Assembly (NCBI GenBank): GCA_025361565.1
Contig: JANYKN010000042.1
Location: 1 to 64,000 of the forward strand
Source: Bacteroidota bacterium
GTDB lineage: Bacteria; Bacteroidota; Bacteroidia; Bacteroidales; NBLH01
DNA length: 64,000 nt
Direction: 5' to 3'
This document shows, one piece after another, positions 2,929 to 19,418 of the stretch. The notes under the pieces were generated by a model. The model saw nothing but the letters and a program-made list of their open reading frames with translations, ran no database searches and was not told the origin of the DNA. Position 1 is the first letter of the stretch; the number at the start of each line of letters is the position of its first letter. A program made the translations under genes and the position numbers.

Positions 2929-3813
2929 ATGAAAATCCAAATCCAAAATCTCAGCAAAATATACAGCAACCATAAAAAAGCACTTTCTGATATTAATTTG
3001 GATATTGAAAATGGCATGTTCGGTCTGCTTGGCCCTAATGGAGCAGGCAAATCAAGTTTGATGCGGATTTTGGTAACTATTATGAAACCAAGCACCGGTA
3101 AAGTAAATGTCAATGGTTATGATTTACTTAAAGATAGAGGCGAAATTAGAAAAATGCTCGGCTATTTACCTCAGGATTTTAGGTTTTTTAGTAAATTGAA
3201 GACTTGGGAATTCCTTGATTATGCTGCTGGATTAGCCGGAATTAGGAGCCAGAAACTTCGTTCTGTTAAAGTAGATGAATGGTTGGATAAAGTAGGACTT
3301 TTCGACTCGCGCGATAGAGACGCCAACCACCTTTCGGGAGGGATGAAACGCCGGCTTGGTATAGCACAGGCTTTAATTGGAGATCCACAGATTATTGTGG
3401 TGGATGAACCAACTACTGGTTTGGATCCAGAAGAGCGTATCCGTTTTAGAAACATCCTGTCGGAGCTTAGCCAAAAAGATGTGATTATCATTTTATCTAC
3501 TCATATTGTTGGTGATATTTCGAGTGTTTGTAACAATTTTGCATTGTTGAATAATGGAAAAATTTGTTTTAATGGTGCCCCGGAAGATTTGGTTAATTTG
3601 GCGCGGGGTCATGTTTGGCAAATAAGTACTTCAGGTGTTGAATATGATTTAATTAAAGCCAAATATGCAGTAATTTCAACTATTCCAGCCGAAGATGGAT
3701 GGGAAATTCAATTTGTTGGTAATGATGTTGGAGATTTGAAAAACACAATTGAAATAGAGCCAAACCTTGAACATGCCTATGTTTATTTTATGGAAACACA
3801 GGGTGGAACATAG
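2929..3813 (+). CDS. ABC transporter ATP-binding protein (partner of the large permease)
   Basis: A 294-residue ABC ATPase with Walker A GPNGAGKS (about 35-42), Q-loop LPQDF, signature LSGGMKRR (about 136-143), Walker B IIVVDEPTTGLD (about 154-165) and the H-loop STHI. The phrases GMFGLLGPNGAGKS, ERIRFRN and the C-terminal NLEHAYVYF are nearly repeated in the ATPase domain fused to the RND protein at 13966-18678, so the two are close paralogues. The gene lies 96 bases upstream of the giant permease gene and is its obvious motor. It has its own upstream gap of 240 bases after a terminator, so a promoter there starts this locus, although I found no clean -7 box. Confidence 0.85.
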   Translation: MKIQIQNLSKIYSNHKKALSDINLDIENGMFGLLGPNGAGKSSLMRILVTIMKPSTGKVNVNGYDLLKDRGEIRKMLGYLPQDFRFFSKLKTWEFLDYAAGLAGIRSQKLRSVKVDEWLDKVGLFDSRDRDANHLSGGMKRRLGIAQALIGDPQIIVVDEPTTGLDPEERIRFRNILSELSQKDVIIILSTHIVGDISSVCNNFALLNNGKICFNGAPEDLVNLARGHVWQISTSGVEYDLIKAKYAVISTIPAEDGWEIQFVGNDVGDLKNTIEIEPNLEHAYVYFMETQGGT

Positions 3814-3909: not shown

Positions 3910-6900
3910 ATGTCACTCTACCTAATAAGAACCATTGCACGTTGCGAAATGAAAACCCTTCTTCGAAGTTGGTTCTTTCGGATTTTTGCTGGTTTGGCCA
4001 TTTTGGGTCTGGGCATTTTTAATGTGGCTATGAATATTGAGTCGAGCGGTGCTCCATGGATATACAGGGCATTGTCAAGTTCAATACCATATGCCAATCT
4101 AATTATTTTAAATCTCGGCCAGGCCATAGTTGCAATTTTTCTGGCTTCGGAATTTTTAAAACAAGATAGAAAAAACGATACGGTCGAAGTTATTTATGCC
4201 CGTTCAATGACTAATGGCGACTATATTCTGGGAAAAACCTTAGGAATACTCCTCGTCTTTTTTATCCTAAATATCATCGTACTTGTTTTAGGAATTGGTT
4301 TTTCATTTCTGAGTAACGATACTTCTCGCAGCTTGCTTTCATTGTTCGCATATCCATTGCTCATTAGCTTGCCAACTTTGGTTTATATATTCGGTTTGTC
4401 ATTTTTTTTAATGATTTTGTTGAAAAATCAAGCAGTAACATTCCTTGTTTTGTTGGGGTATATTGCACTTACCGTTTTTTACCTTAGCTCCAAAACCTAT
4501 CATATTTTTGATTTTATCGCCTATCATGTTCCAATGATGTATTCACCTATTGCGGGCTTTGGCAATTTATCCGAAATTCTTTTACACCGAAGTATTTTCT
4601 TTTTTGCAGGAATTGCATTGATTTTTTTCACCATTTATAAATTGCCGCGTTTGCCACAATCCCGAACTTTTGAAATATTTCCTTTATTTATGGCTTTGGT
4701 GTTTTTTGCGATAAGTGCAATATTGGCTTTTCAATATATTAATATTAAGGAAAACAACATCGGATTTAAAGAGCAGGTAATACAATTAAACAATAGATAT
4801 TCAAACTATCCCAAAGTTACAATTACGGATTGTGATATTAACCTTGAGCATATAAATGATTCAATTGTGGTAAAAGCTAAACTTAAACTTCAAAATCGGA
4901 CCACGCAAAATATCGATACAATCATATTAAGATTAAACCCTTCATTGAATGTTAGTTCAATCACGGTAAATGCCAAAAAATCGGATTTTAATCGAAATCT
5001 TCATATTATTAAAATCGCATATAATCAGCATGTTAAGCCTAATGACATTTTAGTTTTGGAAATAAATTACAATGGTAAAATCAATGAAAATATTTGTTTT
5101 ATTGATCGGGATCCTGAAGAGTTTTCTGATAACTTCACGCTTGACATGTTTAATATAAGAAAGCGATATGCTTTTATACAGCCCGATTTTGTTTGTTTAA
5201 CCAGCGAAGCACTTTGGTATCCATTGGCAGGAACAGGATATGCAAGTAATGAGCCTATGCAATATTCTCCGGATTTCACAAAATTTACGCTTCAAGTAAA
5301 AGCAGTTAAAGGAATGACGGCCATTTCGCAGGGTAAGTCCATATTGTCAAAAAACGGGACTTACTCTTTTCAGCCCGAGAACCTTCTGCCAAAAATCAGT
5401 TTGGTTATTGGTAATTATATAAAGCATTCTATCAGAGTTGATTCCGTTGATTATAATTTGTACAGTATTGCTGGGAATCAATATTATGAAGCTTATTTTA
5501 AGGATATTGGCGATACCATTTCTAATTTAATTAAAGGGTTAAGGCAAGATTTTGAAGTTCAATCCAAACTAAAATATCCATTTTCTCGGTTTTCATTGGT
5601 TGAAGTTCCTGTTCTTTTTGGTTTGGACAAACATGTTTATTCCATTGCCAGTGACGCCGTACAACCCGAAATGGTTTTGTATCCTGAAAAAGGTGTTCTT
5701 TTTGAAGAAACTGATTTTAGAAAACGAAAAAACAGGACAGAACGTGATATGAAACGCAACAACGAAGAAATTCTTCCTGAAGAAATGCAGACCAGGATGT
5801 TTCAGCGTTTTGTACGTAATAATTTTATGACTAAGTTGGGCGACAGGATTCAGTATGAGGAAATTAAAGACGGAAACACCTACACTTTGTTTCCACAATT
5901 TTATACATATATTACCAGGCTTAATTCCGAAAAATGGCCAATCCTAAATTTTGCCCTAGAAGGTTGGATGAAAGAGAAATCTGGGACATCAGGTGGTTCC
6001 AGTCGTTGGATTTTCGAAGGGATGACAAAACCTGAAAAAATTAATGTAAAACTCATAGATGCTTCATTGGAACAATTGATGAAGAACGGAATTGTAAATG
6101 AAAAGGATGACCGTAATCCTGTTTTATTAAAAGATATCATTTTAGCCAAAGGTGTTCAATTATTTGAAACCTGGAGTGTTCGTTTCGGACCGAGCGAATT
6201 TAATAAAATGATGTTTGAATTGGTGAATCGTTATAAGTTTAATGCATTAACTATAAATGAATTGGATTCCATTATTTACTGTAAATTTGGAAGGTCAATA
6301 ATGCCCGACATCGAAAATTGGTATTATCAGAAAAAACTACCCGCATTTTTGATTAAAGATTTAACAACTTATAAAATTGTTCAGAAAGAAACCACAAAAT
6401 ATCAGGTTCGTATTAAAATATCTAATCCTGAACCAGTTGATGGTTTAGTTTCCATCCAGGTTGAATTGAATGATCCGGATAGAAACAAATCTAAAAATTG
6501 GTGGGAACCCGATGAGGTAAAAGCGGATTATTCAAAATCAATATATATGGCTGCACATTCTGCGGTTGAAGTTGGAATTGTTTTTAATAGTTTGCCGGAG
6601 AGAATGGCTGTTTTGTCAAATGTATCGAAAAATCTTCCAAATGTTTTAAACTATGATTTTGCCGGATTCGACGATATAAAACGTATTCCGGAATTTGATA
6701 CCATAATGAATATACCTGTTTTTATGAGTATTGACGAGCCAAAGGAAATTATTGTCGACAACGAAGATCTAGGTTTTAGTCTAGAAGAAGCAGAAAATCA
6801 AGCCTATCTGAAATCATTGTTAAATAAAAGAACAAAAAAGAAATATGATTATACGGAACTCAGATTTTGGGATGTGCCCGGATATTGGGTTCCCGTGCTA

Positions 6901-7254
6901 CAAACAGGGTATTATGGAAAATATATTCATTCTGCTTATTATACTAGAGGAGGGTTAGGCGATCGAAAGGCAATCTGGAGAACTAAGTTGAAAGAAAGTG
7001 GTTTTTATGATATCTATTTTTATTATACAAAGATTGAGAATAATTGGCGCGAACAAAAAACTAAAGAAACTTATGTTTACCTTGTTTCACATGATGGTGG
7101 AGTTGAAAAAGTACCGGTAACAGAAATGGATAATGGTTGGAATTACCTAGGGTCGTTTTATATTTCGGCGGGGCAGGCAAAAGTTGAATTGTCGAATAAA
7201 ACGGGAGGTGAAATGGTTTTTGCCGATGCAATGAAATGGATAAAGACTAAGTAA
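3910..7254 (+). CDS. ABC permease with degenerate M1-peptidase-like exterior and golvesin-like C-terminus
   Basis: A 1114-residue protein with three parts. Residues 1 to about 290 form an ABC-2 type membrane domain with six or seven hydrophobic segments. From about 295 a large extracytoplasmic part begins with a beta-rich domain like the N-terminal saddle of M1 aminopeptidases (ITDCDINLEHINDSIVVKAK). In related Bacteroidota permease-M1 fusions a HEXXH zinc site follows; I find no HEXXH anywhere here, so it should be catalytically dead. The last 125 residues (from about 990) end in GEMVFADAMKWIKTK, preceded by a YYTKxxNNW-like beta pattern, which resembles golvesin/xanthan-lyase C-terminal domains. 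It sits between its ATPase gene and the TolC gene. The role is unknown; a substrate-binding or scaffold role is inferred. Confidence 0.75.
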   Translation: MSLYLIRTIARCEMKTLLRSWFFRIFAGLAILGLGIFNVAMNIESSGAPWIYRALSSSIPYANLIILNLGQAIVAIFLASEFLKQDRKNDTVEVIYARSMTNGDYILGKTLGILLVFFILNIIVLVLGIGFSFLSNDTSRSLLSLFAYPLLISLPTLVYIFGLSFFLMILLKNQAVTFLVLLGYIALTVFYLSSKTYHIFDFIAYHVPMMYSPIAGFGNLSEILLHRSIFFFAGIALIFFTIYKLPRLPQSRTFEIFPLFMALVFFAISAILAFQYINIKENNIGFKEQVIQLNNRYSNYPKVTITDCDINLEHINDSIVVKAKLKLQNRTTQNIDTIILRLNPSLNVSSITVNAKKSDFNRNLHIIKIAYNQHVKPNDILVLEINYNGKINENICFIDRDPEEFSDNFTLDMFNIRKRYAFIQPDFVCLTSEALWYPLAGTGYASNEPMQYSPDFTKFTLQVKAVKGMTAISQGKSILSKNGTYSFQPENLLPKISLVIGNYIKHSIRVDSVDYNLYSIAGNQYYEAYFKDIGDTISNLIKGLRQDFEVQSKLKYPFSRFSLVEVPVLFGLDKHVYSIASDAVQPEMVLYPEKGVLFEETDFRKRKNRTERDMKRNNEEILPEEMQTRMFQRFVRNNFMTKLGDRIQYEEIKDGNTYTLFPQFYTYITRLNSEKWPILNFALEGWMKEKSGTSGGSSRWIFEGMTKPEKINVKLIDASLEQLMKNGIVNEKDDRNPVLLKDIILAKGVQLFETWSVRFGPSEFNKMMFELVNRYKFNALTINELDSIIYCKFGRSIMPDIENWYYQKKLPAFLIKDLTTYKIVQKETTKYQVRIKISNPEPVDGLVSIQVELNDPDRNKSKNWWEPDEVKADYSKSIYMAAHSAVEVGIVFNSLPERMAVLSNVSKNLPNVLNYDFAGFDDIKRIPEFDTIMNIPVFMSIDEPKEIIVDNEDLGFSLEEAENQAYLKSLLNKRTKKKYDYTELRFWDVPGYWVPVLQTGYYGKYIHSAYYTRGGLGDRKAIWRTKLKESGFYDIYFYYTKIENNWREQKTKETYVYLVSHDGGVEKVPVTEMDNGWNYLGSFYISAGQAKVELSNKTGGEMVFADAMKWIKTK

Positions 7255-7280: not shown

Positions 7281-8789
7281 ATGAATCGATTCGGTCTCAC
7301 ACAAATTGTAAAGTTCTATGCTTTTTGTATATTATTTCTCTTTTTATCGGGAAAAGGAATTGCACAAAAAATAATCACAATCGATGATGCAATGAACGTG
7401 GCACTCAAGAATAGTCCCGAAATGATAAAGTCTGAATTAAATATGCTTGTCAGTCAGGAAAATTTGAAAACGCGCGAAGCTGCCACAAAATCGAATTTTA
7501 CTTTGCAAGTAACTCCTTTTTATTACAACCAGAACCGTACCTACGATGATTTTAATGCAGTTTGGAACACCAACGAAACCAAAAGTTCTTATGGTGATTT
7601 TATCATTTCGCAACCCATTGTAAAAACCGATGCAAAAATTAGCTTGAGAAATCATCTTGAATATCAGGATGCATATAGCGAATTTGGCAATAAATCAACA
7701 AAAGGATTTAGTAATAATTTATATCTTGAGATTTCTCAACCAATTTTTACTTATAATAAAATCAGAATGGAGTTGGATCGGCTTAAATTGGCGCTCGAAA
7801 ATTCAACTTATAATTATTCCATTCAACGCTTATTTCTCGAAAAGCAGGTTACACAATTCTTTTACAATGTTTACCAGATAAAAATGGCTTTGCAAATTGC
7901 CGAGGAAGAATATAAAAACCAGCAAGCCAGCTTTGAAATTATTAAATCAAAAGTTGAAGGCGGTTTAACTGCAAATGCCGAATTGTTGCAAGCTCAACTA
8001 AATCTTTCAAATAGTGAGTCAACTTTCAAAAACAAGCAAGTTGAATTGGAAAATGCGAAAGATGATTTTAAACAATACATTGGCTTGCCGCTCGGCGAAG
8101 ATTTTGATGTTCAGACCAATATTGATTTTGCATATGTTAAAGTTGATTCTGCCAAAGCCATACAAAATGGACTTGAAATGAGAATGGAATTAAAACAACA
8201 GGAAATTTCATTGAAAAATAGTCAGTTCGATTTAACAGTTGCCGAGTCAACCAATGAATTTGCAGGCAATGTAAATCTATCAGTCGGTGTAATTGGCGAT
8301 AATCAAAACCTGATGCATGTGTATGAAACACCTACCCGTAATCCTCAATTTATGGTAGGATTTACAATTCCAATTTGGGATTGGGGCGAAAGAAAATCAA
8401 GGATTCGGGCAAGCAAAGCAATGATCCAGATTCAGGAAATTGATCTTCAAAATGAGAAATATTCAGTTGAAATTGCTATTAGAAAATCATACAGAAGCCT
8501 TCAAAACCTTAATATGCAGATTGAAATAGCCAAACAAAACGAGAAAAACGCGCAGCTAACTTACGAAATAAATCTGGAGAAATATAAGAACAGCGATTTG
8601 ACCAGTATGGATTTGGGCAGATATCAAAATCAATTGTCAACAGCAAAAATGAACTTGGCAAACGCATTAATCAGTTATAAAATAGAATTGTTGAACATGA
8701 AAATCCAAAGCCTTTGGGATTTTGAGAAAAATATCAATTTCGTTCCGGAAGTTTTGCAGGATAATTTGAAAGATGATGGGAAAGAATAG
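7281..8789 (+). CDS. TolC-family outer membrane efflux protein
   Basis: A 502-residue protein with a signal peptide (residues 1 to about 29, cleavage after GKGIAQ), then the two-fold repeat of long alpha-helical segments typical of TolC/OprM. Each half starts with a pattern like ITIDDAMNVALKNSPEM and contains long coiled stretches rich in N, Q, A and L (EEYKNQQASFEIIKSKVEGGLTANAELLQAQ is the classic second helix). It would form the trimeric outer-membrane channel for the RND and possibly ABC components encoded around it. It begins 26 bases after the giant permease gene, so it belongs to that transcript. The adaptor gene follows only after a transposase insertion of about 950 bases. Confidence 0.9.
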   Translation: MNRFGLTQIVKFYAFCILFLFLSGKGIAQKIITIDDAMNVALKNSPEMIKSELNMLVSQENLKTREAATKSNFTLQVTPFYYNQNRTYDDFNAVWNTNETKSSYGDFIISQPIVKTDAKISLRNHLEYQDAYSEFGNKSTKGFSNNLYLEISQPIFTYNKIRMELDRLKLALENSTYNYSIQRLFLEKQVTQFFYNVYQIKMALQIAEEEYKNQQASFEIIKSKVEGGLTANAELLQAQLNLSNSESTFKNKQVELENAKDDFKQYIGLPLGEDFDVQTNIDFAYVKVDSAKAIQNGLEMRMELKQQEISLKNSQFDLTVAESTNEFAGNVNLSVGVIGDNQNLMHVYETPTRNPQFMVGFTIPIWDWGERKSRIRASKAMIQIQEIDLQNEKYSVEIAIRKSYRSLQNLNMQIEIAKQNEKNAQLTYEINLEKYKNSDLTSMDLGRYQNQLSTAKMNLANALISYKIELLNMKIQSLWDFEKNINFVPEVLQDNLKDDGKE

Positions 8790-9736: not shown

Positions 9737-10786
9737 ATGAAAAAACTACTTGTGTTTATTATCTCAGTAAGCATTTTTGCAGCTTGTGGCAACCAGCAGG
9801 AGGATTTAAGCAGCGACATATCCGTACCTGTAAGTGTAACTGAACTAAAACCTCAATCCATTCAAAAGTTCATCGAAATAAATGGTTCTGTAAAGCCAAT
9901 TAAAGAAGTGAAATTGAAAGCTGAAATATCGGGGAAATATCACTTGATGAAGAGTTCTTCAGGCATTAATCCTTATACTTTGGGTGACATTGTTAAAGAA
10001 GGTGCTGAAATAATTTGGTTGGAAGACTTTGAATATGAGAATAATATCAAGCTTCCATCTCAAAAATTAAATCTTGAGATTACCAAACAAGTCTTCGACA
10101 AACAACAATCATTATTCGATAAAGGTGGCGTAACCCTCAGCGAATTGAAAAACGCTGAAATCAACTATATGAACGCAAAATATACCTATGATGATGCAAT
10201 GATTCGTTTGCAGAAAATGCATGTTAAAGCACCATTTACTGGGGCAATTGTAGATTTACCGTATTTTACTCCTTTGGCTAAAATTGATGTAAATTCCTTG
10301 CTGGTTTCGATTATGGATTATAGTAAATTGTTTATGGAAATCAATTTGGCAGAAAAAAATCTGGAATATATCAAATCTGGACAAACGGTTCAAATTACAA
10401 ATTATACCCTACTTGACGATACTTTGAAAGGAACAATTACCCAACTATCGCCTGCGATTGATCCTGAAACCAGATCTTTTAAAGGAATGATTGTAATTGA
10501 TAACCCAGGATTAAAACTGAGACCCGGAATGTTTGCCAAAGGTGAAGTGGTGGTGGCTTCGGCAGCAAATTCAATTGTAATTCCCAAAGAAATTATCGTT
10601 TCAAAACAGAAAGGAAATTATGTTTTTGTTGTCGAAAAAGGAATTGCGTATGAACGAGAAATTCAAATTGGGCTTGAAAATCCAAAACAAGTGCAGGTAG
10701 TTTCAGGACTCAAAGTGGGCGAAAATATAGTTGTAAAAGGATTTGAAACACTTAGAAATGAATCGAAAATTAAAGTAGTTAAATAG
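9737..10786 (+). CDS. RND efflux periplasmic adaptor, lipoprotein (HlyD/AcrA family)
   Basis: A 349-residue membrane fusion protein. The N-terminus ends in the lipobox FAAC with Cys17, so it is lipid-anchored. The order is a barrel-sandwich half (IEINGSVKPIKEVKLKAEISG), a short helical hairpin (KQVFDKQQSLFDKGGVTLSEL), the returning half (HVKAPFTGAIVDL, a standard MFP phrase), a beta-barrel and a membrane-proximal domain ending VVKGFETLRNESKIKVVK. It would join inner-membrane pumps to the TolC protein encoded upstream. The next gene, an RND pump, starts ten bases after it. One adaptor appears to serve two RND genes. Confidence 0.9.
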   Translation: MKKLLVFIISVSIFAACGNQQEDLSSDISVPVSVTELKPQSIQKFIEINGSVKPIKEVKLKAEISGKYHLMKSSSGINPYTLGDIVKEGAEIIWLEDFEYENNIKLPSQKLNLEITKQVFDKQQSLFDKGGVTLSELKNAEINYMNAKYTYDDAMIRLQKMHVKAPFTGAIVDLPYFTPLAKIDVNSLLVSIMDYSKLFMEINLAEKNLEYIKSGQTVQITNYTLLDDTLKGTITQLSPAIDPETRSFKGMIVIDNPGLKLRPGMFAKGEVVVASAANSIVIPKEIIVSKQKGNYVFVVEKGIAYEREIQIGLENPKQVQVVSGLKVGENIVVKGFETLRNESKIKVVK

Positions 10787-10796
10787 GATTCGGAAA

Positions 10797-13700
10797 ATGA
10801 GAAAAATTATTGAATTTGCTGTTAATTTTCCGGTAACTATTTCTATGATAGTGCTTGGAGTTCTTTTGCTTGGCTATATTTCGTTGCAGAAATTGAGTAT
10901 TGATTTGCTGCCTGAAATGAACTCTCCCCGGATTTTCATTGAATTAAAAATCGGGGAACGCCCGCCCGAAGAAATTGAAAAACAATATGTCGAAAACATT
11001 GAAAGCCAAAGTATCCGGTTAAAAGGTGTTTCAAATGTTTCGTCGGTTTGTATGGTTGGTGCTGCAAGGATAAAAGTAGAATACAATTGGGGAACCGATA
11101 TGGACGAAGCTTTTCTGGATTTGCAAAAAGCACTCACTATGTTTAGTCAAAATTCAGAAATTCAGGAATTTAATATTACTCAGCACGATCCAAATGCTTC
11201 GCCGGTAATGCTTATTGCCATGCAAAATAAAAGCATTTCGGATATGAATGAATTGCGTATGGTGGGCGAAAATTATATCAGAAATGAGCTAATTAGGCTC
11301 GAAGGAGTTGCTGATGTGGTTTTGACCGGTACAGAAGAAAAAGAAGTAGTAATTGAAACCGATCAATCCCAATTAAATGCGTATGGTTTAACCACCGATA
11401 ATATAGTACAACAGATTCAGAACATCAACCGCAATGTTTCCGGTGGTTCTATTGTTGAAATGGGCAAAAAATATATTATTAAAGGAGTTTCATTAATTAA
11501 AAACATTCAGGAACTTGAAAATATCGTAATCACTTACAAACAAAGCAATTCAAATATTCTAAATGGACAAAATTCATCAGTAGAAAGTAAAGTTCCGGTT
11601 TTATTAAAGGACATAGCCAAAGTTAGTTTTATCAATAAAAAGCCCGATAATATTGTACGTGTAAATGGAAAGCGCTGTGTTGGTTTGTCAATTTATAAAG
11701 AAACCAGCTACAATACAGTAAAAGCAGTTGAAGAATTAAATAAATCTTTAGAAAATATTAAAAAAGCCTTGCCGGGATATGAATTTACAATCGTTCAAAA
11801 TCAGGGTTACTATATTCAAAATGCAATTGATGAGCTAAAAAATACGGCATGGTTGGGAGCTTTTTTAACTGTTTTGGTACTTTATGTGTTCCTTCGCCGG
11901 ATAGGGATAACGTTGATTGTTAGCGTTGCAATTCCAGTTTCCGTAATTGCAACTTTTAATTTGATGTATTTCAATGGTTTGAGCATCAATATTATGACAC
12001 TTGGCGGTTTAGCTCTTGGAGTAGGTATGTTAGTAGACAACGCTATAGTGGTTGTTGAAAGTATATACCGAAACCTTGAAACTGGATTGCCTTTAAAAGA
12101 GGCTGTCATTAGAGGAACAGCCGAAATTGGTGGAGCAATTATATCTTCAACTTTAACTACAATTGTTGTTTTTCTTCCAATTGTGTATTTACATGGAGCT
12201 TCGGGTGCTCTTTTTAAAGATCAAGCCTGGACTGTGGCATTTTCACTAATTGCCTCTTTGTTTGTGGCTATTTTTCTTATTCCAATGATGTTTCATTCAT
12301 CTTACAAGAATTCTAAAAATACAGTTCAAACAAATAGTTACCAATTTAAATGGTATCGTGGATTCCTGTCTTCAATAATCGAAAACCGTAGATTGGTGCT
12401 CGGTGCGGCTGCAATTTTAATAGCGATATCGATAATTTTATTACCTTATATTGGCAGTGAGTTTATTCCCAAAAGTGGAACCGGGGAATTTTCATTGGAC
12501 ATAAAATTAAAAGAAGGAACGGAGATTGAACGTACGCTTGGAACTGTAAATAATATTGAATCAATGCTCCAGGAAATACTTGGAGATAAAGCTGAAATTA
12601 TATACAGCCAGATTGGTCCTACTTCAGTTGGTGCATCAGAAAAAGCAGTTTTCCAAAATGAAAACACAGCCACCATAAAAATAAAGTTGAAACCAGAGGC
12701 AATCAAATATTCAGGTTCGTTAATAAACAAAGTAGGTAGTTTAATAAGTGAAATTCCAGATGCTGAAATTTCCCTGGTGCGTGATGAAACAGCTATGGAA
12801 TCTACCATGGGAACAAATGAAGCACCGGTAATAATAGAAGTGAAAGGAAACGATATTAAAGTTCTGGAGCAATTGACCATTGATATTAAAAAAAACATCT
12901 CAGCCATTCCTGAATTATACAATGTAAAAACCAGCATAGAAGAAGGTGCGCCTGAAATTGATGTGGTTATTGATCGCTATAAAGCATCCATGTATAATTT
13001 AAACGCAGGGAGTATAACAAGCCAGCTAAAGGATATTTTAATTGGCAAAAATGCAGGGAAATATGAAAATGCAGGCGAAATGGATGATATCACCATCAAA
13101 ATGCCTGAATTAAGCTTGCTTGAATTCAATTCGATCATTTTAAAAAGTGGTGACAAAGATGTTCCATTGTATGAAATTGCAACTTTTGAAAAATCATCAT
13201 CTCCAAAACAATTACTGCGGAACAATCAAAACCGGATAGGGAATATTACTGCTGATATTCAAGGGAAACTGGCGTTTGATAAAGTGATTGAAAAAGTCAG
13301 AAAACAATTAAAGACTGTGAGTGTGCAGCCTGATTATCAAGTTTCAATAGTTGGGGAGGAATTAAAACGTGGCGAAGCTATGTCTAGCCTCGGGTTTGCC
13401 TTAATCCTTTCTGTTATATTGGTTTACATGGTTATGGCTTCGCAATTCGAATCTTTGATCCATCCATTTACGGTATTACTTACCATTCCTTTGGCTGCTG
13501 CCGGAACAATCATTACCTTCTTTTTATTGGGCCATCCATTTAACATGATGGCTTATATTGGTTTAATCATGTTGGGTGGAATTGCGGTAAACAATTCAAT
13601 TCTATTGGTTGATGCGATAAACCAGTTAAAAGAGGAAGGTTACAAGCTTAAAGAAGCAATTATTTTAGCTGGATATAAACGGATCCGGCCTATTTTAATG

Positions 13701-13895
13701 ACAAGTTTGACAACCATTTTGGCCTTAATTCCGTTAACACTTGGTATTGGTGAAAGTTCTGAGTTGCAAGCACCAATGGCAATTGCTGTAATTTCAGGTT
13801 TAACCACATCAACTATGCTCACATTGATTGTAATTCCTTGTGTTTATTATGTTTTTGACAGGAGTAAAAAAGATGAAAATTCAATTCAGATTTGA
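10797..13895 (+). CDS. RND efflux transporter permease subunit (first of two)
   Basis: A complete 1032-residue RND pump with twelve expected membrane helices and two large periplasmic loops. TM4 carries GMLVDNAIVVVES with Asp414 at the place of the first proton-relay aspartate of AcrB; the second is Asn. In TM10 the segment GGIAVNNSILLVD has Asn where AcrB has its lysine. These replacements match the SwrC-like branch common in Bacteroidota and Firmicutes. It begins ten bases after the adaptor gene and is followed 70 bases later by the second, fused RND gene, so the working pump may be a heteromer. Substrate unknown. Confidence 0.9.
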   Translation: MRKIIEFAVNFPVTISMIVLGVLLLGYISLQKLSIDLLPEMNSPRIFIELKIGERPPEEIEKQYVENIESQSIRLKGVSNVSSVCMVGAARIKVEYNWGTDMDEAFLDLQKALTMFSQNSEIQEFNITQHDPNASPVMLIAMQNKSISDMNELRMVGENYIRNELIRLEGVADVVLTGTEEKEVVIETDQSQLNAYGLTTDNIVQQIQNINRNVSGGSIVEMGKKYIIKGVSLIKNIQELENIVITYKQSNSNILNGQNSSVESKVPVLLKDIAKVSFINKKPDNIVRVNGKRCVGLSIYKETSYNTVKAVEELNKSLENIKKALPGYEFTIVQNQGYYIQNAIDELKNTAWLGAFLTVLVLYVFLRRIGITLIVSVAIPVSVIATFNLMYFNGLSINIMTLGGLALGVGMLVDNAIVVVESIYRNLETGLPLKEAVIRGTAEIGGAIISSTLTTIVVFLPIVYLHGASGALFKDQAWTVAFSLIASLFVAIFLIPMMFHSSYKNSKNTVQTNSYQFKWYRGFLSSIIENRRLVLGAAAILIAISIILLPYIGSEFIPKSGTGEFSLDIKLKEGTEIERTLGTVNNIESMLQEILGDKAEIIYSQIGPTSVGASEKAVFQNENTATIKIKLKPEAIKYSGSLINKVGSLISEIPDAEISLVRDETAMESTMGTNEAPVIIEVKGNDIKVLEQLTIDIKKNISAIPELYNVKTSIEEGAPEIDVVIDRYKASMYNLNAGSITSQLKDILIGKNAGKYENAGEMDDITIKMPELSLLEFNSIILKSGDKDVPLYEIATFEKSSSPKQLLRNNQNRIGNITADIQGKLAFDKVIEKVRKQLKTVSVQPDYQVSIVGEELKRGEAMSSLGFALILSVILVYMVMASQFESLIHPFTVLLTIPLAAAGTIITFFLLGHPFNMMAYIGLIMLGGIAVNNSILLVDAINQLKEEGYKLKEAIILAGYKRIRPILMTSLTTILALIPLTLGIGESSELQAPMAIAVISGLTTSTMLTLIVIPCVYYVFDRSKKDENSIQI

Positions 13896-13965: not shown

Positions 13966-16900
13966 ATGAGATTTATCCTCAAACATAAAATACTAATAAC
14001 CATGCTCTTTACAGCACTCACCATGCTGGGGTACATTTCTTACAAACAATTACCTGTGGAGCTTTATCCAAATACACAATTCCCTTATTTATTCATTCAG
14101 GTTGGTTCAGCGCTCGAAGTTGACCCATCGTACATGGAAAATCAGGCTATAATCCCTATCGAAGGTGCTATTGGAACCATGAAAGGTGTTGATAAAATTG
14201 AATCAACTGCCGATCAGCAGCGGGGAACTATTCAAATCACCTATAAACCTGGCACTAATATAAAATACGCTTATCTAAAACTGGTACAGAAAATCGACGA
14301 ACTCAAAAAATCATTACCTACTGAGTTTCAAGTGCAGGTTTTTAAATTCGATATCGAACAAATCAACAACCAATTTATGACCCTTCAGGTCCGGGGTGGT
14401 GGAGGAGTTGACCGTGTAAGACAAATTGTTGATAAAGAAATATTTAGTAAGATTCAAAATATCAATGGAATTGCCAATGTTTCTGTTTTTGGGGGAAGGG
14501 AAAAATCTATCGAAATTATTCTAAATGAAGAAGTTTGCAAGTCATATAACATCACTTCGGCAACAATTAGAAACGCCATTTCAAATAATAGCAGTTCCCG
14601 CACTTTTGCAGGAAAAATTACTGAAAACAACAGGCTTCATTTTATAAATGTGATATCGGAATATTCGGATATTTCAAACATTGAAAACATTGTGGTTAAA
14701 GATTCTGGCAGAATACAACTAAAAGACGTTGCCGAAGTCCATTTTGGGGTTAAAGAGCAGGATTCTTATAGCCGTGTAAATGGAAAAGAATCGGTCACAT
14801 TGCAACTTACTCGTGATAATCAGGTCAATATGATTGAGTTAGCCAATCGTGTAAAACAATTTGTTGAAAAATTAAACACCAATCTAAAAGATAAAGACAT
14901 TGAAGTTGTAATACAGAATAATTCGGCCGAAACAATGGAAAAAAACATCGACCTGATTATTAATCTGGCTATAACAGGCGGAATTCTGGCTATTTTTATT
15001 CTTTGGATTTTCCTTAAAAACATCCGACTGGTTGTGGCTATTGCTATCGCAATTCCGATTTCGGTTTTTACGGCCTTCAATTTCTTTTATGCAGCCGATA
15101 TTACGCTAAACAGTTTAACTTTACTGGGGATGGCGCTTGCTGTGGGAATGCTGCTCGATAACAGTGTGGTTGTGATGGAAAATATTTATCGCCTCACTTC
15201 TCAAGGTGTTGATGAAGATACTGCGGTAATACAAGGCACCAAAGAAGTATGGCGTTCTATTTTGGCTTCAACTTTGACCACAGTTATGGTCTTTTTGCCT
15301 TTTGCCTTTTCCGAAAACTTTTTGGTGGGATTATTGGGTAAAAATGTTGGTATATCTATCGTTTCAACTTTGATGGTTTCGTTACTTGTGGCTTTATTGT
15401 TAGTTCCATTGATAACCCATTCTTTTTTAAAATACAAGAAAAATATACAATCGCTTGATCTTGAGATGGTGTCGAAACGTAACCGTCTTATCGAGATTTA
15501 TTTTGTCATTTTGAAATCATGCATGCGATATCCTGCCAAAACTATATTGGGAGCTCTGGCTGCTTTTTTTATTACATTACTTCTTAGTTTAGGTGTTAGC
15601 ATTATATCAAATCAAGAACCTGAAGTGACAAATCTAACACTTTATGTTACTCTGCCGGGTGGAACCACATTGGATAATACTGATATTGTCATCAGCCAAA
15701 TTGAAAAAAAGCTTATTGTTCTGCCTGAAAGAAAAGACGTCATTAGCCAGGTTTATGAAGAAGAAGGAGTACTGACCATTGAATTAGTAAAGGATTTTAG
15801 AAAAGTAAGGAATTTTTCTATCCCAAAAATTAAAAAGGAAGTATTAGAAAAGCTTAGTGAAATTAACCAGGCTAGTTTTAGCTGGGATCCACCGGCTACA
15901 GGCCGTCGATTTGGTGGAGGAAATCGAGATGGCGATGCCGACCTAGAAGGAATAATGGGCTTTGGTTCTAAAAATGAAAAAGTAATAGTTAAAGGTCAGG
16001 ATTTTAATAAAATATTGGCCCACGCCAAAAAAGTGGAATATTATCTTTCACAAATGACTTCTGTTCAAAATGTTACTATTAATATTCCATCGCCACGGCC
16101 TGAAATATCTATGAATTTTAATGCCCAGTTGATGGCATTATATAGCATTCCGCTTACATCGGTGCTTTCGGAACTAAATTCTTTTCCACGCGAGTTTTCA
16201 AGTGGTGTTAAATTTAAACAAGGAGCCGATGAATATGATATTTTAATTCGAACACCCAGTCTTGAAAAAGAAAAGGAACGTAACCTAAAAGACTTGAAAT
16301 CCTTGACTGTAAAAGGTTCAAACAATTCACAATTTGAATTGCAAAACATGGCTGATTTTAACTTTACCGAAGGAGTGCCTTCTATAAAGAGGATAAATCA
16401 GGAAAAGCAATTGGAAATAAGTTATTCCTTTATCGAAGAAATAAATGCAGATGAAGATTTGATGACCGCAGCAAGGCTTGAGGTAGAAGATCTTTTGCGT
16501 GGCATTAAGATGCCTTCTGGAATAGCCACAGAAATAGTTGAGGGCAAAGAAGATTTAAGCGATTTTACTTTCTTGATTTTTGCTGCTTTTATTCTGATAT
16601 ACATGATAATGGCTTCGGTTTTTGAATCGTTTTTTACACCAATCGTTTTATTGTTTTCAATACCGTTGGCAGCGATTGGCTCTCTAATTTTGCTCGCTTT
16701 TTCAGGAAGTTCTCTTTTTAATGCAAATACACTTACTGGATTCATTATTTTGATTGGAATTGTTGTGAATAATGGAATTATTTTAATCGATTATTCAAAT
16801 ATTCTTCAAAAGAGAGGCTATAACTTATCAAGGTCTTTGATGATGGCAGGTTTGGCCAGAGTGAGGCCAATTTTAATTACAGCTTTTGCAACAGTAATTT

Positions 16901-18678
16901 CCTTGGTTCCATTAGCGATGGGCAAAGCGGAATATGTTACACAAATTGGGACACCATTTGCCATTACAGTCATTGGAGGGTTGACTTTAAGTACGCTGCT
17001 AACATTGGTTTTTATCCCAACTTTTGATTCGGGACTTCAATCAGCAATGGGTTGGATAAGGAATCAAAAATTGTATATTAAGATAATTCAACTTGGTATT
17101 TGCATCATTGGAAGTTATTATATTTATACTGAGATTGATAGTATTGTTTGGCAGCTTATCGATTATATCTTGTTGGTTGTGGGCTTACCCGCCACTTTCT
17201 TTTTTGTTCAGAACAGTTTGCGTCGTGCCTCTGAAAAATTAATTGACGAAAAAAGTCCTTTGCATATTACCGTGCGGAACCTTGTGAAAATCTATGATCG
17301 CGACAGCAAATTTATGCGAGAGTGGAAATCAGGCATAAAAATTAGGGAAAGAATTGGTTTGGTGAGGCATTTTGATAGTTTGAAGGATTTCGACTACATG
17401 GTTTGGCAAGCTCCTCTTGCTGCTTTTTTAGTTTATTTTATTTATTTCCATCTCGAAAGTGGTTTGTGGTATTTTATTATGCCAGTTTTATTGTATTTGC
17501 TTGTACTTTATGCACTTCGACCTTTTATCATATTTACTGAAAATTTAACAGTGAACAAAAAGAAAAGATGGCCTAAAAGATTTGTTTTACTTGGTTATCG
17601 GTTATTTTTTTGGATTTTTCCGGCAGTTGCATTATTTATATTTAATAAACGTTTTAATTTAATTGGACTGGTTATTCCTGCTGCTTTTTTCTGGTATTTG
17701 GCACTGTTCGTAAAAATTACTTCTGACAAAATTGAGAAAGAGAAAATAAATATAAACCGGGTAAATGGTTGGTTTAAAGGCATTCGGAAAGCTTTTTATC
17801 GTTTTGTTCTGATAATTCCTGTAATCGGAAAGAAAAAATCTCCATTTAAAGCTTTACGTGGAGTTTCATTCGAAATTGAAAGTGGAATGTTCGGTTTGCT
17901 AGGCCCGAATGGTGCCGGAAAATCCACTTTAATGAAAATTATTTGCGGAATCCTGGAACCAAGCTACGGGAAAATTACCATAAATGGGATAGATATTCAG
18001 GAAAAGCGTGAGGAATTGCAAGGATTAATCGGCTATTTACCGCAAGAATTCGGAATGTATGAAAATTTAACTGCATGGGAATTTCTCAATTATATGGGAA
18101 TACTTAAAAAGTTGTATGACACCAAAATCAGGGAAGAACGTGTTGAATATGTGCTAAAAGCAGTGCACATGATATCGCACAAAGATGAAAAAATTGGTTC
18201 GTTTTCAGGTGGAATGAAACAACGAATTGGAATTGCTCAGATTTTATTGCACTTACCACGTTTATTGGTGGTTGATGAACCCACCGCCGGTCTTGATCCA
18301 CGCGAGCGAATCCGTTTCCGTAATTTGTTGGTAGAACTAAGCCGCGATAGAATTGTAATATTTTCAACTCATATTATCGAAGATGTGGCTAGTTCTTGCA
18401 ATATGGTAGCCGTAATTAAAACAGGGCAAGTTAAATATCTGGGAAAACCAATTGAAATGGCACAAATTGCTGAAGGAAAAATATGGATGATGGAATTATC
18501 GATTGATGATTTTGAGGAATTCAAGAACAAATATGTAATTATTCATCATATGCGTGATGGTGATAAAATAAGGGTACGTTGCCTTGCAAACGAATCGCCC
18601 ACAATGGGAGCAAGGCAGGTTAAGGCGAATTTGGAAGATGCATATTTGTATCTTTTGAGTAATAACGAAAGCTCATAA
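13966..18678 (+). CDS. RND transporter fused to an ABC ATPase
   Basis: A single 1570-residue frame. Residues 1 to about 1020 are a full RND pump: TM1 near 10-25, TM4 motif GMLLDNSVVVMEN with Asp398, second half with FESFFTPIVLLFSIPLAA and TM10 GIVVNNGIILIDY. Residues about 1025-1290 add several further hydrophobic segments (QAPLAAFLVYFIYFHLE, WYFIMPVLLYLLVLYALR, RLFFWIFPAVALFIF, IGLVIPAAFFWYLALF). Residues about 1292-1570 form a complete ABC ATPase with Walker A GPNGAGKS (about 1313), signature FSGGMKQR (about 1411), Walker B LLVVDEPTAGLD (about 1432) and STHI. A phrase like the first strand of an ABC domain, HITVRNLVKIYD, already occurs near 1099, so the extra helices may be inserted within the ATPase fold. 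The coding runs without a break through the junction, so I see no sign of an assembly artefact. Confidence 0.85.
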   Translation: MRFILKHKILITMLFTALTMLGYISYKQLPVELYPNTQFPYLFIQVGSALEVDPSYMENQAIIPIEGAIGTMKGVDKIESTADQQRGTIQITYKPGTNIKYAYLKLVQKIDELKKSLPTEFQVQVFKFDIEQINNQFMTLQVRGGGGVDRVRQIVDKEIFSKIQNINGIANVSVFGGREKSIEIILNEEVCKSYNITSATIRNAISNNSSSRTFAGKITENNRLHFINVISEYSDISNIENIVVKDSGRIQLKDVAEVHFGVKEQDSYSRVNGKESVTLQLTRDNQVNMIELANRVKQFVEKLNTNLKDKDIEVVIQNNSAETMEKNIDLIINLAITGGILAIFILWIFLKNIRLVVAIAIAIPISVFTAFNFFYAADITLNSLTLLGMALAVGMLLDNSVVVMENIYRLTSQGVDEDTAVIQGTKEVWRSILASTLTTVMVFLPFAFSENFLVGLLGKNVGISIVSTLMVSLLVALLLVPLITHSFLKYKKNIQSLDLEMVSKRNRLIEIYFVILKSCMRYPAKTILGALAAFFITLLLSLGVSIISNQEPEVTNLTLYVTLPGGTTLDNTDIVISQIEKKLIVLPERKDVISQVYEEEGVLTIELVKDFRKVRNFSIPKIKKEVLEKLSEINQASFSWDPPATGRRFGGGNRDGDADLEGIMGFGSKNEKVIVKGQDFNKILAHAKKVEYYLSQMTSVQNVTINIPSPRPEISMNFNAQLMALYSIPLTSVLSELNSFPREFSSGVKFKQGADEYDILIRTPSLEKEKERNLKDLKSLTVKGSNNSQFELQNMADFNFTEGVPSIKRINQEKQLEISYSFIEEINADEDLMTAARLEVEDLLRGIKMPSGIATEIVEGKEDLSDFTFLIFAAFILIYMIMASVFESFFTPIVLLFSIPLAAIGSLILLAFSGSSLFNANTLTGFIILIGIVVNNGIILIDYSNILQKRGYNLSRSLMMAGLARVRPILITAFATVISLVPLAMGKAEYVTQIGTPFAITVIGGLTLSTLLTLVFIPTFDSGLQSAMGWIRNQKLYIKIIQLGICIIGSYYIYTEIDSIVWQLIDYILLVVGLPATFFFVQNSLRRASEKLIDEKSPLHITVRNLVKIYDRDSKFMREWKSGIKIRERIGLVRHFDSLKDFDYMVWQAPLAAFLVYFIYFHLESGLWYFIMPVLLYLLVLYALRPFIIFTENLTVNKKKRWPKRFVLLGYRLFFWIFPAVALFIFNKRFNLIGLVIPAAFFWYLALFVKITSDKIEKEKININRVNGWFKGIRKAFYRFVLIIPVIGKKKSPFKALRGVSFEIESGMFGLLGPNGAGKSTLMKIICGILEPSYGKITINGIDIQEKREELQGLIGYLPQEFGMYENLTAWEFLNYMGILKKLYDTKIREERVEYVLKAVHMISHKDEKIGSFSGGMKQRIGIAQILLHLPRLLVVDEPTAGLDPRERIRFRNLLVELSRDRIVIFSTHIIEDVASSCNMVAVIKTGQVKYLGKPIEMAQIAEGKIWMMELSIDDFEEFKNKYVIIHHMRDGDKIRVRCLANESPTMGARQVKANLEDAYLYLLSNNESS

Positions 18679-18710: not shown

Positions 18711-19418
18711 ATGAACATCATCAACAAACTGAAACTTTTAACAAAAATAATCAGCTATAACCTGAAAATAATATTTGCTGGATATTTTGTCTATTTTTTA
18801 ATTGCGGCAGCAATTTTTTATCTCATTGTAATTTCCATCATGGTTTTTACCAATGTTACTCCCGATGCTGGCGGAATATACAATGCTTTGATATTCCCAG
18901 GTATGCTTATCATGTTTTATCCGGTAGTGTTTAGTATTCAGAATGATAAAGATACCCGAATGCTTGAAATTGTTTTTGGAGTACCGAATTATCGATACAA
19001 AGTTTATATGGTTCGTTTTGCAATTACTATATTGCTTTTGTTTTTTATTTTATTTCTGATGTCTTGGTTTGCGTTTTTTTCAGTCGTCCGGATACCCATT
19101 TTTAAAATGGTTTTTGAACTTATGTATCCATTGTCATTTTTAGCTTGTGTTTCGTTTCTTTTTTCTACAATTATAAAAAATGGAAATGGAACTGCAGTAG
19201 TAATGGTTATAATTGGTTTGATATTTTGGTTTTTGAGCGAATCACTTGAAAATAGCAAATGGAGCCTGTTCCTGAATCCTTTTACTATTCCGGATGAAAT
19301 GAACATTACTATTTGGACCAAAATTGTAAGTCAAAATCGTTTGATTTTATCAATTGGATCTATTATTTCTATTCTTTGGGGATTAATGAATTTGCAATCC
19401 AGGGAAAAGTTTGTCTAG
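18711..19418 (+). CDS. ABC-2 type permease, last gene of the transporter locus
   Basis: A 235-residue membrane protein with six hydrophobic segments (IFAGYFVYFLIAAAIFYLIV, LIFPGMLIMFYPVVFSI, FAITILLLFFILFLMSWFAFF, LMYPLSFLACVSFLFSTII, TAVVMVIIGLIFWFL, LILSIGSIISILWGLM). The phrase QNDKDTRMLEIVFGVPNYRYKVYMVRF after the second helix resembles the coupling region of ABC-2 permeases and the corresponding part of the large permease at 3910. It starts 32 bases after the RND-ABC fusion gene and most likely pairs with that fused ATPase. It has no periplasmic domain. Substrate unknown. Confidence 0.75.
   Translation: MNIINKLKLLTKIISYNLKIIFAGYFVYFLIAAAIFYLIVISIMVFTNVTPDAGGIYNALIFPGMLIMFYPVVFSIQNDKDTRMLEIVFGVPNYRYKVYMVRFAITILLLFFILFLMSWFAFFSVVRIPIFKMVFELMYPLSFLACVSFLFSTIIKNGNGTAVVMVIIGLIFWFLSESLENSKWSLFLNPFTIPDEMNITIWTKIVSQNRLILSIGSIISILWGLMNLQSREKFV

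Follow-up and report, generated by a model that had tools for sequence, protein, structure and literature searches.

RND and ABC exporters count as distinct superfamilies, each with its own energy source, and several described systems each resemble some part of the locus reported here. MdtABC-TolC of E. coli is encoded by two adjacent RND genes with an adaptor and a TolC-type channel, a layout that recurs here, but it includes neither an ABC ATPase nor an ABC-2 permease. Among solved structures, MdtB (9lyq) gives the best sequence match for the RND half of the fusion protein described below, differing from it at the proton relay positions (Asp-Asp and Lys in MdtB; Asp-Asn and Asn in the fusion). 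MacAB-TolC also combines an ATPase with an adaptor and TolC, and the fused ATPase domain (NBD) aligns to that of MacB (5lj6, Z 24.8). MacB, however, carries its own MacB/FtsX-type permease domain, in place of which the present locus has an RND protein and an ABC-2 permease; neither the fusion nor the adjacent permease (PERM) matches MacB_PCD or FtsX at an E-value of 0.01, so the locus does not classify as a MacB-type pump. NosDFY offers a further likeness, in that PERM has the NosY fold and the fused NBD aligns to NosF (7o0y_B, Z 23.9), but it contains no RND protein, and NosF is a separate, unsplit ATPase. In RbbA, an ATPase is likewise fused to a membrane part, and the NBD matches part of the RbbA model (NF033858; 142.3 of 1,050 bits for the fusion, short of the cut-off); there, the fused membrane part is an ABC-2 permease, not an RND protein.

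The fusion lies in the window, that is, the whole 64,000-nucleotide stretch of Bacteroidota DNA analyzed here, which belongs to a 6.76-Mb draft genome of 199 contigs. A single uninterrupted frame of 1,570 codons (ATG at 13966, stop at 18678, plus strand) fuses a complete RND transporter with a complete ABC ATPase, as the original prediction had stated:

13966–18678, plus strand: RND-ABC fusion protein (1,570 aa; PF00873 and PF00005; relatives with the same joint)
13966–17025, plus strand: RND half, residues 1–1020 (PF00873 at 2–1020)
17071–17232, plus strand: two extra predicted helices after the RND half, residues 1036–1056 and 1060–1089 (AlphaFold helices, hydropathy peaks)

PF00873 matches residues 2 to 1020 (E 8.5e-154; profile positions 3 to 1016 of 1,021; 514.2 bits against a cut-off of 28), a full-length match that places the RND part in the RND superfamily (AcrB/AcrD/AcrF), and the proposed domain search of the C-terminal part returned PF00005 at residues 1297 to 1441 (E 4.1e-31; 108.9 bits against a cut-off of 25). 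The view that no described family has this architecture also held up. Pfam reads the protein as two separate domains; among the best 25 of 193 NCBIfam matches, the fusion reaches no curated cut-off, the highest named RND subfamily being NF033617 (452.7 of 1,250 bits); and the literature searched for an RND-ABC fusion yielded no description of one.

Other proteins with the same joint are readily found. A scan of GTDB species genomes with residues 981 to 1570 confirmed 127 relatives, of which the best 80 were kept; this choice and the use of exact peptide patterns make the sample lean toward close relatives. The whole gene is present in 67 of the 80 loci, each time as one colinear frame of 1,544 to 1,656 codons from stop to stop, and these complete relatives are 46 to 68% identical to the query, aligning nearly end to end. 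In the other 13 loci, the available DNA starts inside the gene, and these were left out of the full-length alignment; conservation counts for the fusion refer to 68 sequences. By label, the 80 comprise 69 Bacteroidota, 3 Krumholzibacteriota, 3 KSB1, and 1 each of Calditrichota, Chlorobiota, and Melioribacteraceae, with 2 unlabeled, and the isolate records include Marinifilum, Labilibaculum, Ancylomarina, and Perlabentimonas. A quick tree of the 68 sequences clusters the nine rows without a Bacteroidota label, leaving the window aside, with a support of 92 (below the 95 mark), a grouping that agrees with an old spread without proving one.

The family is sparse. A profile of the membrane insert described below matched 7 of 395 genomes of the phylum (one a 22.6-bit match with stops and one the window's own genome, leaving five others), and a second draw matched 1 of 61 genomes, which was already among the seven (G384); a single-sequence search matched 3 of 295 genomes of the class, its own genome counted. 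No unfused insert was seen in the 395 phylum genomes, every match above 100 bits lying within a frame of 1,561 to 1,640 codons. Similarly, no close unfused relative of the RND half was seen among 119 class genomes, with at most six candidates scored per genome: these contain one other fused copy, 44 to 54% identical in its two pieces, and the other matches listed reach at most 30%. No plasmid-borne copies were found at an E-value of 1e-80 with residues 1021 to 1570 as the query.

The fusion is the sixth gene of a conserved seven-gene order, whose other members in the window are as follows:

2929–3813, plus strand: ABC_a, a stand-alone ABC ATPase (PF00005)
3910–7254, plus strand: large membrane protein with a seemingly ABC-2-permease-like N terminus, a long middle part, and a Golvesin_C C terminus (PF25275, E 2.5e-15)
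7281–8789, plus strand: TolC-type outer-membrane efflux protein (PF02321, E 4.3e-46)
9737–10786, plus strand: periplasmic adaptor, MFP (TIGR01730 RND_mfp, 183.8 bits against a cut-off of 94.9; PF16576)
10797–13895, plus strand: RND1, a second, unfused RND permease (PF00873, E 2.4e-215)
18711–19418, plus strand: PERM, a NosY-like ABC-2 permease and probable partner of the fused ATPase (Pfam of relatives, AlphaFold, fold, and neighborhood)

The window and four further genomes share the same seven genes in the same order, from ABC_a to PERM, and the flanking genes differ among them, one of the four contigs ending just upstream. Across the wider sample, 79 of 80 loci have PERM after the fusion, the exception (L013) being a locus that ends 674 bases beyond the fusion. 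In 33 of 76 loci, PERM starts −4 to +15 bases from the fusion stop, and the largest such gap is 454. Where there is enough upstream DNA, the adaptor is present in 62 of 62 loci, TolC in 58 of 58, RND1 in 66 of 67 (in the one miss, L074, it is visible and overlapping), and the protein of the 3910–7254 type in 54 of 56, the two misses (L018 and L043) starting at or just before TolC. With an adaptor and a TolC-type channel in the operon, the locus has the gene content expected of a tripartite efflux system.

The 3910–7254 product (1,114 aa) has Golvesin_C as its sole Pfam match; the ABC-2 likeness of its N terminus is our own reading, as is a resemblance of its middle part to M1 peptidases. The latter was rejected as a peptidase assignment: HExxH is absent from all five copies, and no PDB sequence matches at an E-value of 0.1. 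A role as a defense system was rejected as well: PADLOC matches were confined to the two ATPases (the best being to mad3, with 100.5 bits and part of the profile covered), which we take to reflect shared ATPase motifs, and none of the other five proteins scanned matched, the fusion having been entered as residues 1021 to 1570. Between the TolC and adaptor genes, the window carries an IS200-like Y1 transposase-type ORF (PF01797, 8968–9420), and a Y1-like ORF (31% identical) occupies the same gap in L052. Ahead of the operon, positions 503–2467 encode a separate ABC ATPase, a small membrane protein, and a GntR regulator; no relatives of this trio were seen within 6 to 7 kb upstream of the operon in the three genomes covered.

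The C-terminal part of the fusion contains the following features:

17266–17295, plus strand: assigned first NBD strand with A-loop Tyr1110, residues 1101–1110, ITVRNLVKIY (conservation, model, fold, and sliding-window test)
17296–17841, plus strand: NBD insert of 182 residues with four predicted membrane helices, 1145–1162, 1166–1194, 1201–1230, and 1233–1259 (alignment, AlphaFold)
17842–18675, plus strand: rest of the NBD and C-terminal region, residues 1293–1570 (PF00005, model, fold match)
17902–17928, plus strand: Walker A, residues 1313–1321 (alignment of 68 fusions)
18202–18225, plus strand: ABC signature, residues 1413–1420 (alignment of 68 fusions)
18262–18297, plus strand: Walker B and D-loop, residues 1433–1444 (alignment of 68 fusions)
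18370–18372, plus strand: H-loop His1469 (68 of 68)

The Walker A, signature, Walker B, and H-loop motifs are intact, as predicted, and so is the Q-loop (residues 1357–1367). All 68 aligned fusions share the catalytic residues (the Lys and the last Thr of Walker A, Gln of the Q-loop, Ser-Gly-Gly of the signature, Asp-Glu of Walker B, and His of the H-loop), with variation at other motif positions (e.g., Ser1320, present in 51 of 68). By these motifs, the fused NBD is an ABC ATPase. It is not, as first described, simply attached to the RND transporter: its first strand lies some 182 residues upstream of the rest, beyond a four-helix membrane insert. In the usual ABC ATPase layout, the first strand and A-loop directly precede the strand leading to Walker A, an arrangement present in ABC_a but not in the fused NBD.

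Four lines of evidence, drawn from sequence and modeling, make ITVRNLVKIY the first strand and A-loop of a split ATPase and led us to reject a simply appended domain. Val1107, Lys1108, and Tyr1110 of this segment each occur in 68 of 68 fusions, and 164 to 185 residues (median, 182) separate it from Pro1293 and the strand leading to Walker A. First, in BLAST comparisons, the main alignment of ABC_a to the fusion begins at ABC_a residue 17, and ITVRNLVKIY aligns separately to ABC_a residues 1 to 21 (the short piece alone has an E-value of 0.33). Second, in the AlphaFold model of residues 1005 to 1570 (53 of the 68 fusions in the alignment; pLDDT 82.5; pTM 0.63), obtained by the structure prediction called for earlier, the NBD is modeled with ITVRNLVKIY as a strand set off by the helical insert; two helices are predicted ahead of this strand, after the RND half, and the insert has another four, in agreement with hydropathy peaks. 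Third, fold alignments (VIA-align) of solved ATPases, judged from range ends and aligned counts, begin at model residue 92 to 97, opposite the start of the ATPase domain; since they begin at the first strand and span the model range (LptB 6b89_B: Z 23.7, rmsd 2.9, 221 of 226 residues, model range 95–497), they must skip the insert. Fourth, when 253 sliding windows of residues 1020 to 1288 were put before the NBD core and scored with a profile built on five ABC_a proteins, the best ended at Tyr1110 with 253.8 bits (mean, 245.4; standard deviation, 1.3; core alone, 244.7), and the next five places were shifted windows over the same segment.

Because the predicted helix numbers on the two sides of the first strand are even (two and four), both NBD pieces should reside in the cytosol, and the ATPase is predicted to be membrane anchored before and after its first strand. 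A profile of the insert, built from 37 of the 68 fusions, drew no Pfam family matching more than 1 of the 37 members, and the idea that the two plus four added helices are a hidden ABC-2 permease was rejected, given this silence of Pfam and a probability of 0.4% in a profile comparison with PERM. We know of no other ABC ATPase interrupted by a membrane domain at this position, and one narrow literature search found no paper describing one.

The likely membrane partner of this ATPase is instead encoded next door. PF12698 (ABC2_membrane_3) matches 20 of 51 PERM members (best E 6.2e-8) and none of the other 31, and the PERM of the window has no Pfam match at all. Its AlphaFold model (pLDDT 86.5; 50 of 76 PERM genes plus that of the window in the alignment) best matches NosY (7znq_y; Z 15.8, rmsd 3.4, 212 residues aligned), and the 50 fold matches listed are all ABC transporters (NosY, ABCG, ABCA, and similar) at Z 13.5 to 15.8, scores to be read with the caution that helical bundles can reach Z 13 by a common arrangement. 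With PERM as a neighboring ABC-2 permease, the ATPase fits the description of an ABC-2 (type V) exporter by sequence and model, and the neighborhood makes PERM its probable partner. The ATPase thus need not be a power source for the RND half, as its fusion to an RND transporter had first implied, since it probably has a transport partner of its own.

As to origin, the fused NBD and ABC_a are 42% identical over 272 aligned positions, and ABC_a is the best relative of the fused NBD in its own genome (243.8 bits versus 168.2 for the next, among 58 matches and after the query itself). The two are paralogues, and the best relative belongs to the same operon, which suggests a duplication within the operon. 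Frames of roughly 1,025 to 1,057 codons matching the ATPase also occur in L117 and on four contigs of the window's own genome (C108, C149, C185, and C71); that of L117, the only one read, places an ABCG-like ATPase and permease behind a long N-terminal part.

For the proton relay, the register was set by alignment with MdtB, where Asp-Asp stands opposite Asp398-Asn399 and Lys opposite Asn935:

15157–15162, plus strand: TM4 Asp398-Asn399, at the AcrB D407-D408 positions (Asp in 68 of 68, Asn in 67 of 68; MdtB alignment register)
16768–16770, plus strand: TM10 Asn935, at the AcrB K940 position (Asn in 68 of 68; Lys in MdtB)

The remaining fusion has Ser at the D408 position, and Arg965 and Thr972, which we take to be AcrB R971 and T978, are invariant in the 68 aligned fusions. 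The fusion thus lacks the AcrB-like HAE-1 signature (Asp-Asp in TM4, Lys in TM10). RND1 is nearly the same: among frames of more than 950 aa and more than 40% identity (those of the window and of 62 of the 80 loci), the D407, D408, and K940 positions are aligned with Asp in 63 of 63, Asn in 63 of 63, and Asn in 60 or Ser in 3 of 63. For comparison, 42 distinct other RND frames, all from the highest-scoring loci, at least 800 aa long, and with a TM4-like motif (RND proteins without such a motif being dropped), include 37 with Asp-Asp/Lys, one with Asp-Asn/Asn (L164), and four that differ otherwise, one of them truncated. L164 (G134:C1:405026-408037) is a 1,459-codon frame with an RND part and some 400 additional codons, in which no ABC part was found by a scan scoring at most five candidates per genome. 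L002, an RND protein of the window's own genome, lacks both the D408 and K940 equivalents; we read it as metal-pump-like, and metal RND proteins work with other relay residues.

The original prediction had noted that TM4 keeps Asp398, which is so in all 68 fusions, and had concluded that both energy sources may be live, a conclusion that fares less well. In AcrB, any one of the changes D407N, D408N, K940A, and R971A abolishes both proton translocation and efflux (PMC4359379). With Asn at the D408 and K940 positions of the fusion, where single changes inactivate AcrB, Asp398 does not secure proton drive, and canonical proton drive of the RND half appears doubtful. Nor need the relay change mean a loss of proton drive, since L164 and L002 are also changed.

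Our leaning, held a little more firmly than not, is toward a tripartite RND pump that contains a mixed RND trimer and into which an ABC-2 exporter is tethered, with export in two stages. The parts of such a pump are present, RND1 and the fusion being encoded beside an adaptor and a TolC channel, and the seven-gene locus would be a self-contained export machine in which the fused NBD and PERM form an ABC-2 exporter covalently tethered to the RND pump. The ABC half would spend ATP on moving a substrate of lipophilic or envelope type across the inner membrane, or out of it, and the substrate would then be handed to the RND/adaptor/TolC duct and leave the cell. By analogy with MdtBC, RND1 and the fusion probably form a mixed trimer; speculatively, two copies of the fusion and one of RND1 would bring exactly the two ATPases that one PERM dimer needs. 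With one Asp kept and two AcrB relay residues missing, the RND half may have an altered proton coupling or may be driven partly by the work of the ATPase. Both function and substrate are inferences, the pairing of the fused NBD with PERM is read from their neighborhood, and ABC_a or the 3910–7254 protein could pair across.

A more radical view, which strikes us as rather unlikely, is that the locus represents a chimeric class of transporter, an RND pump that incorporates a membrane-split ABC ATPase as the energy source of its cycle, the relay being reduced to one Asp in both RND proteins; to our knowledge, neither an ATP-driven RND machine nor an ABC ATPase fold interrupted by a membrane domain occurs elsewhere. 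Were ATP to drive the RND protein directly, the two-stage picture would be wrong or incomplete. Such direct drive, with the fused ATPase powering the RND trimer cycle in place of much of the proton relay and PERM serving as a coupling or membrane part, is favored by the absence of D408 and K940 equivalents from both operon RND proteins when 37 of 42 other frames have Asp-Asp/Lys, by the inactivity of the AcrB mutants D408N and K940A (PMC4359379), and by the two extra helices and four-helix insert that join the ATPase to the RND bundle. We nevertheless consider it unlikely: a conserved ABC-2 permease adjoins the ATPase, Asp398, Arg965, and Thr972 are invariant, and the changes in L164 and L002 indicate that an altered relay need not mean lost proton drive. 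We are equally doubtful that the fusion merely colocalizes two independent pumps for the same substrate, each with its own energy source and with no transfer of work; parts of both pumps are present, and fusing operon neighbors is a common way to fix stoichiometry, but an NBD interrupted by a membrane insert, together with a relay change that is nearly uniform in the two RND proteins, points beyond tethering. That a misassembly or frameshift joined two genes can be dismissed, as nothing in its favor was found on this contig, one of the 199 of the draft genome, whereas the joint is conserved in one frame in 67 of 67 complete relatives and 14 of the 80 loci come from NZ_ records whose titles do not mark them as MAGs.

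Two features were absent from the original prediction, namely, an ATPase split by a membrane insert and Asn at the D408 and K940 positions of the fusion, with RND1 nearly the same. The RND-ABC fusion is open to experiment, since its records include isolates and carry five or more phylum labels. A conserved protein of this kind, with a membrane insert in its ATPase fold and a relay change shared by both RND proteins, offers a natural system in which to ask whether ATP can drive or regulate RND cycles and how a substrate is transferred from the ABC to the RND stage.
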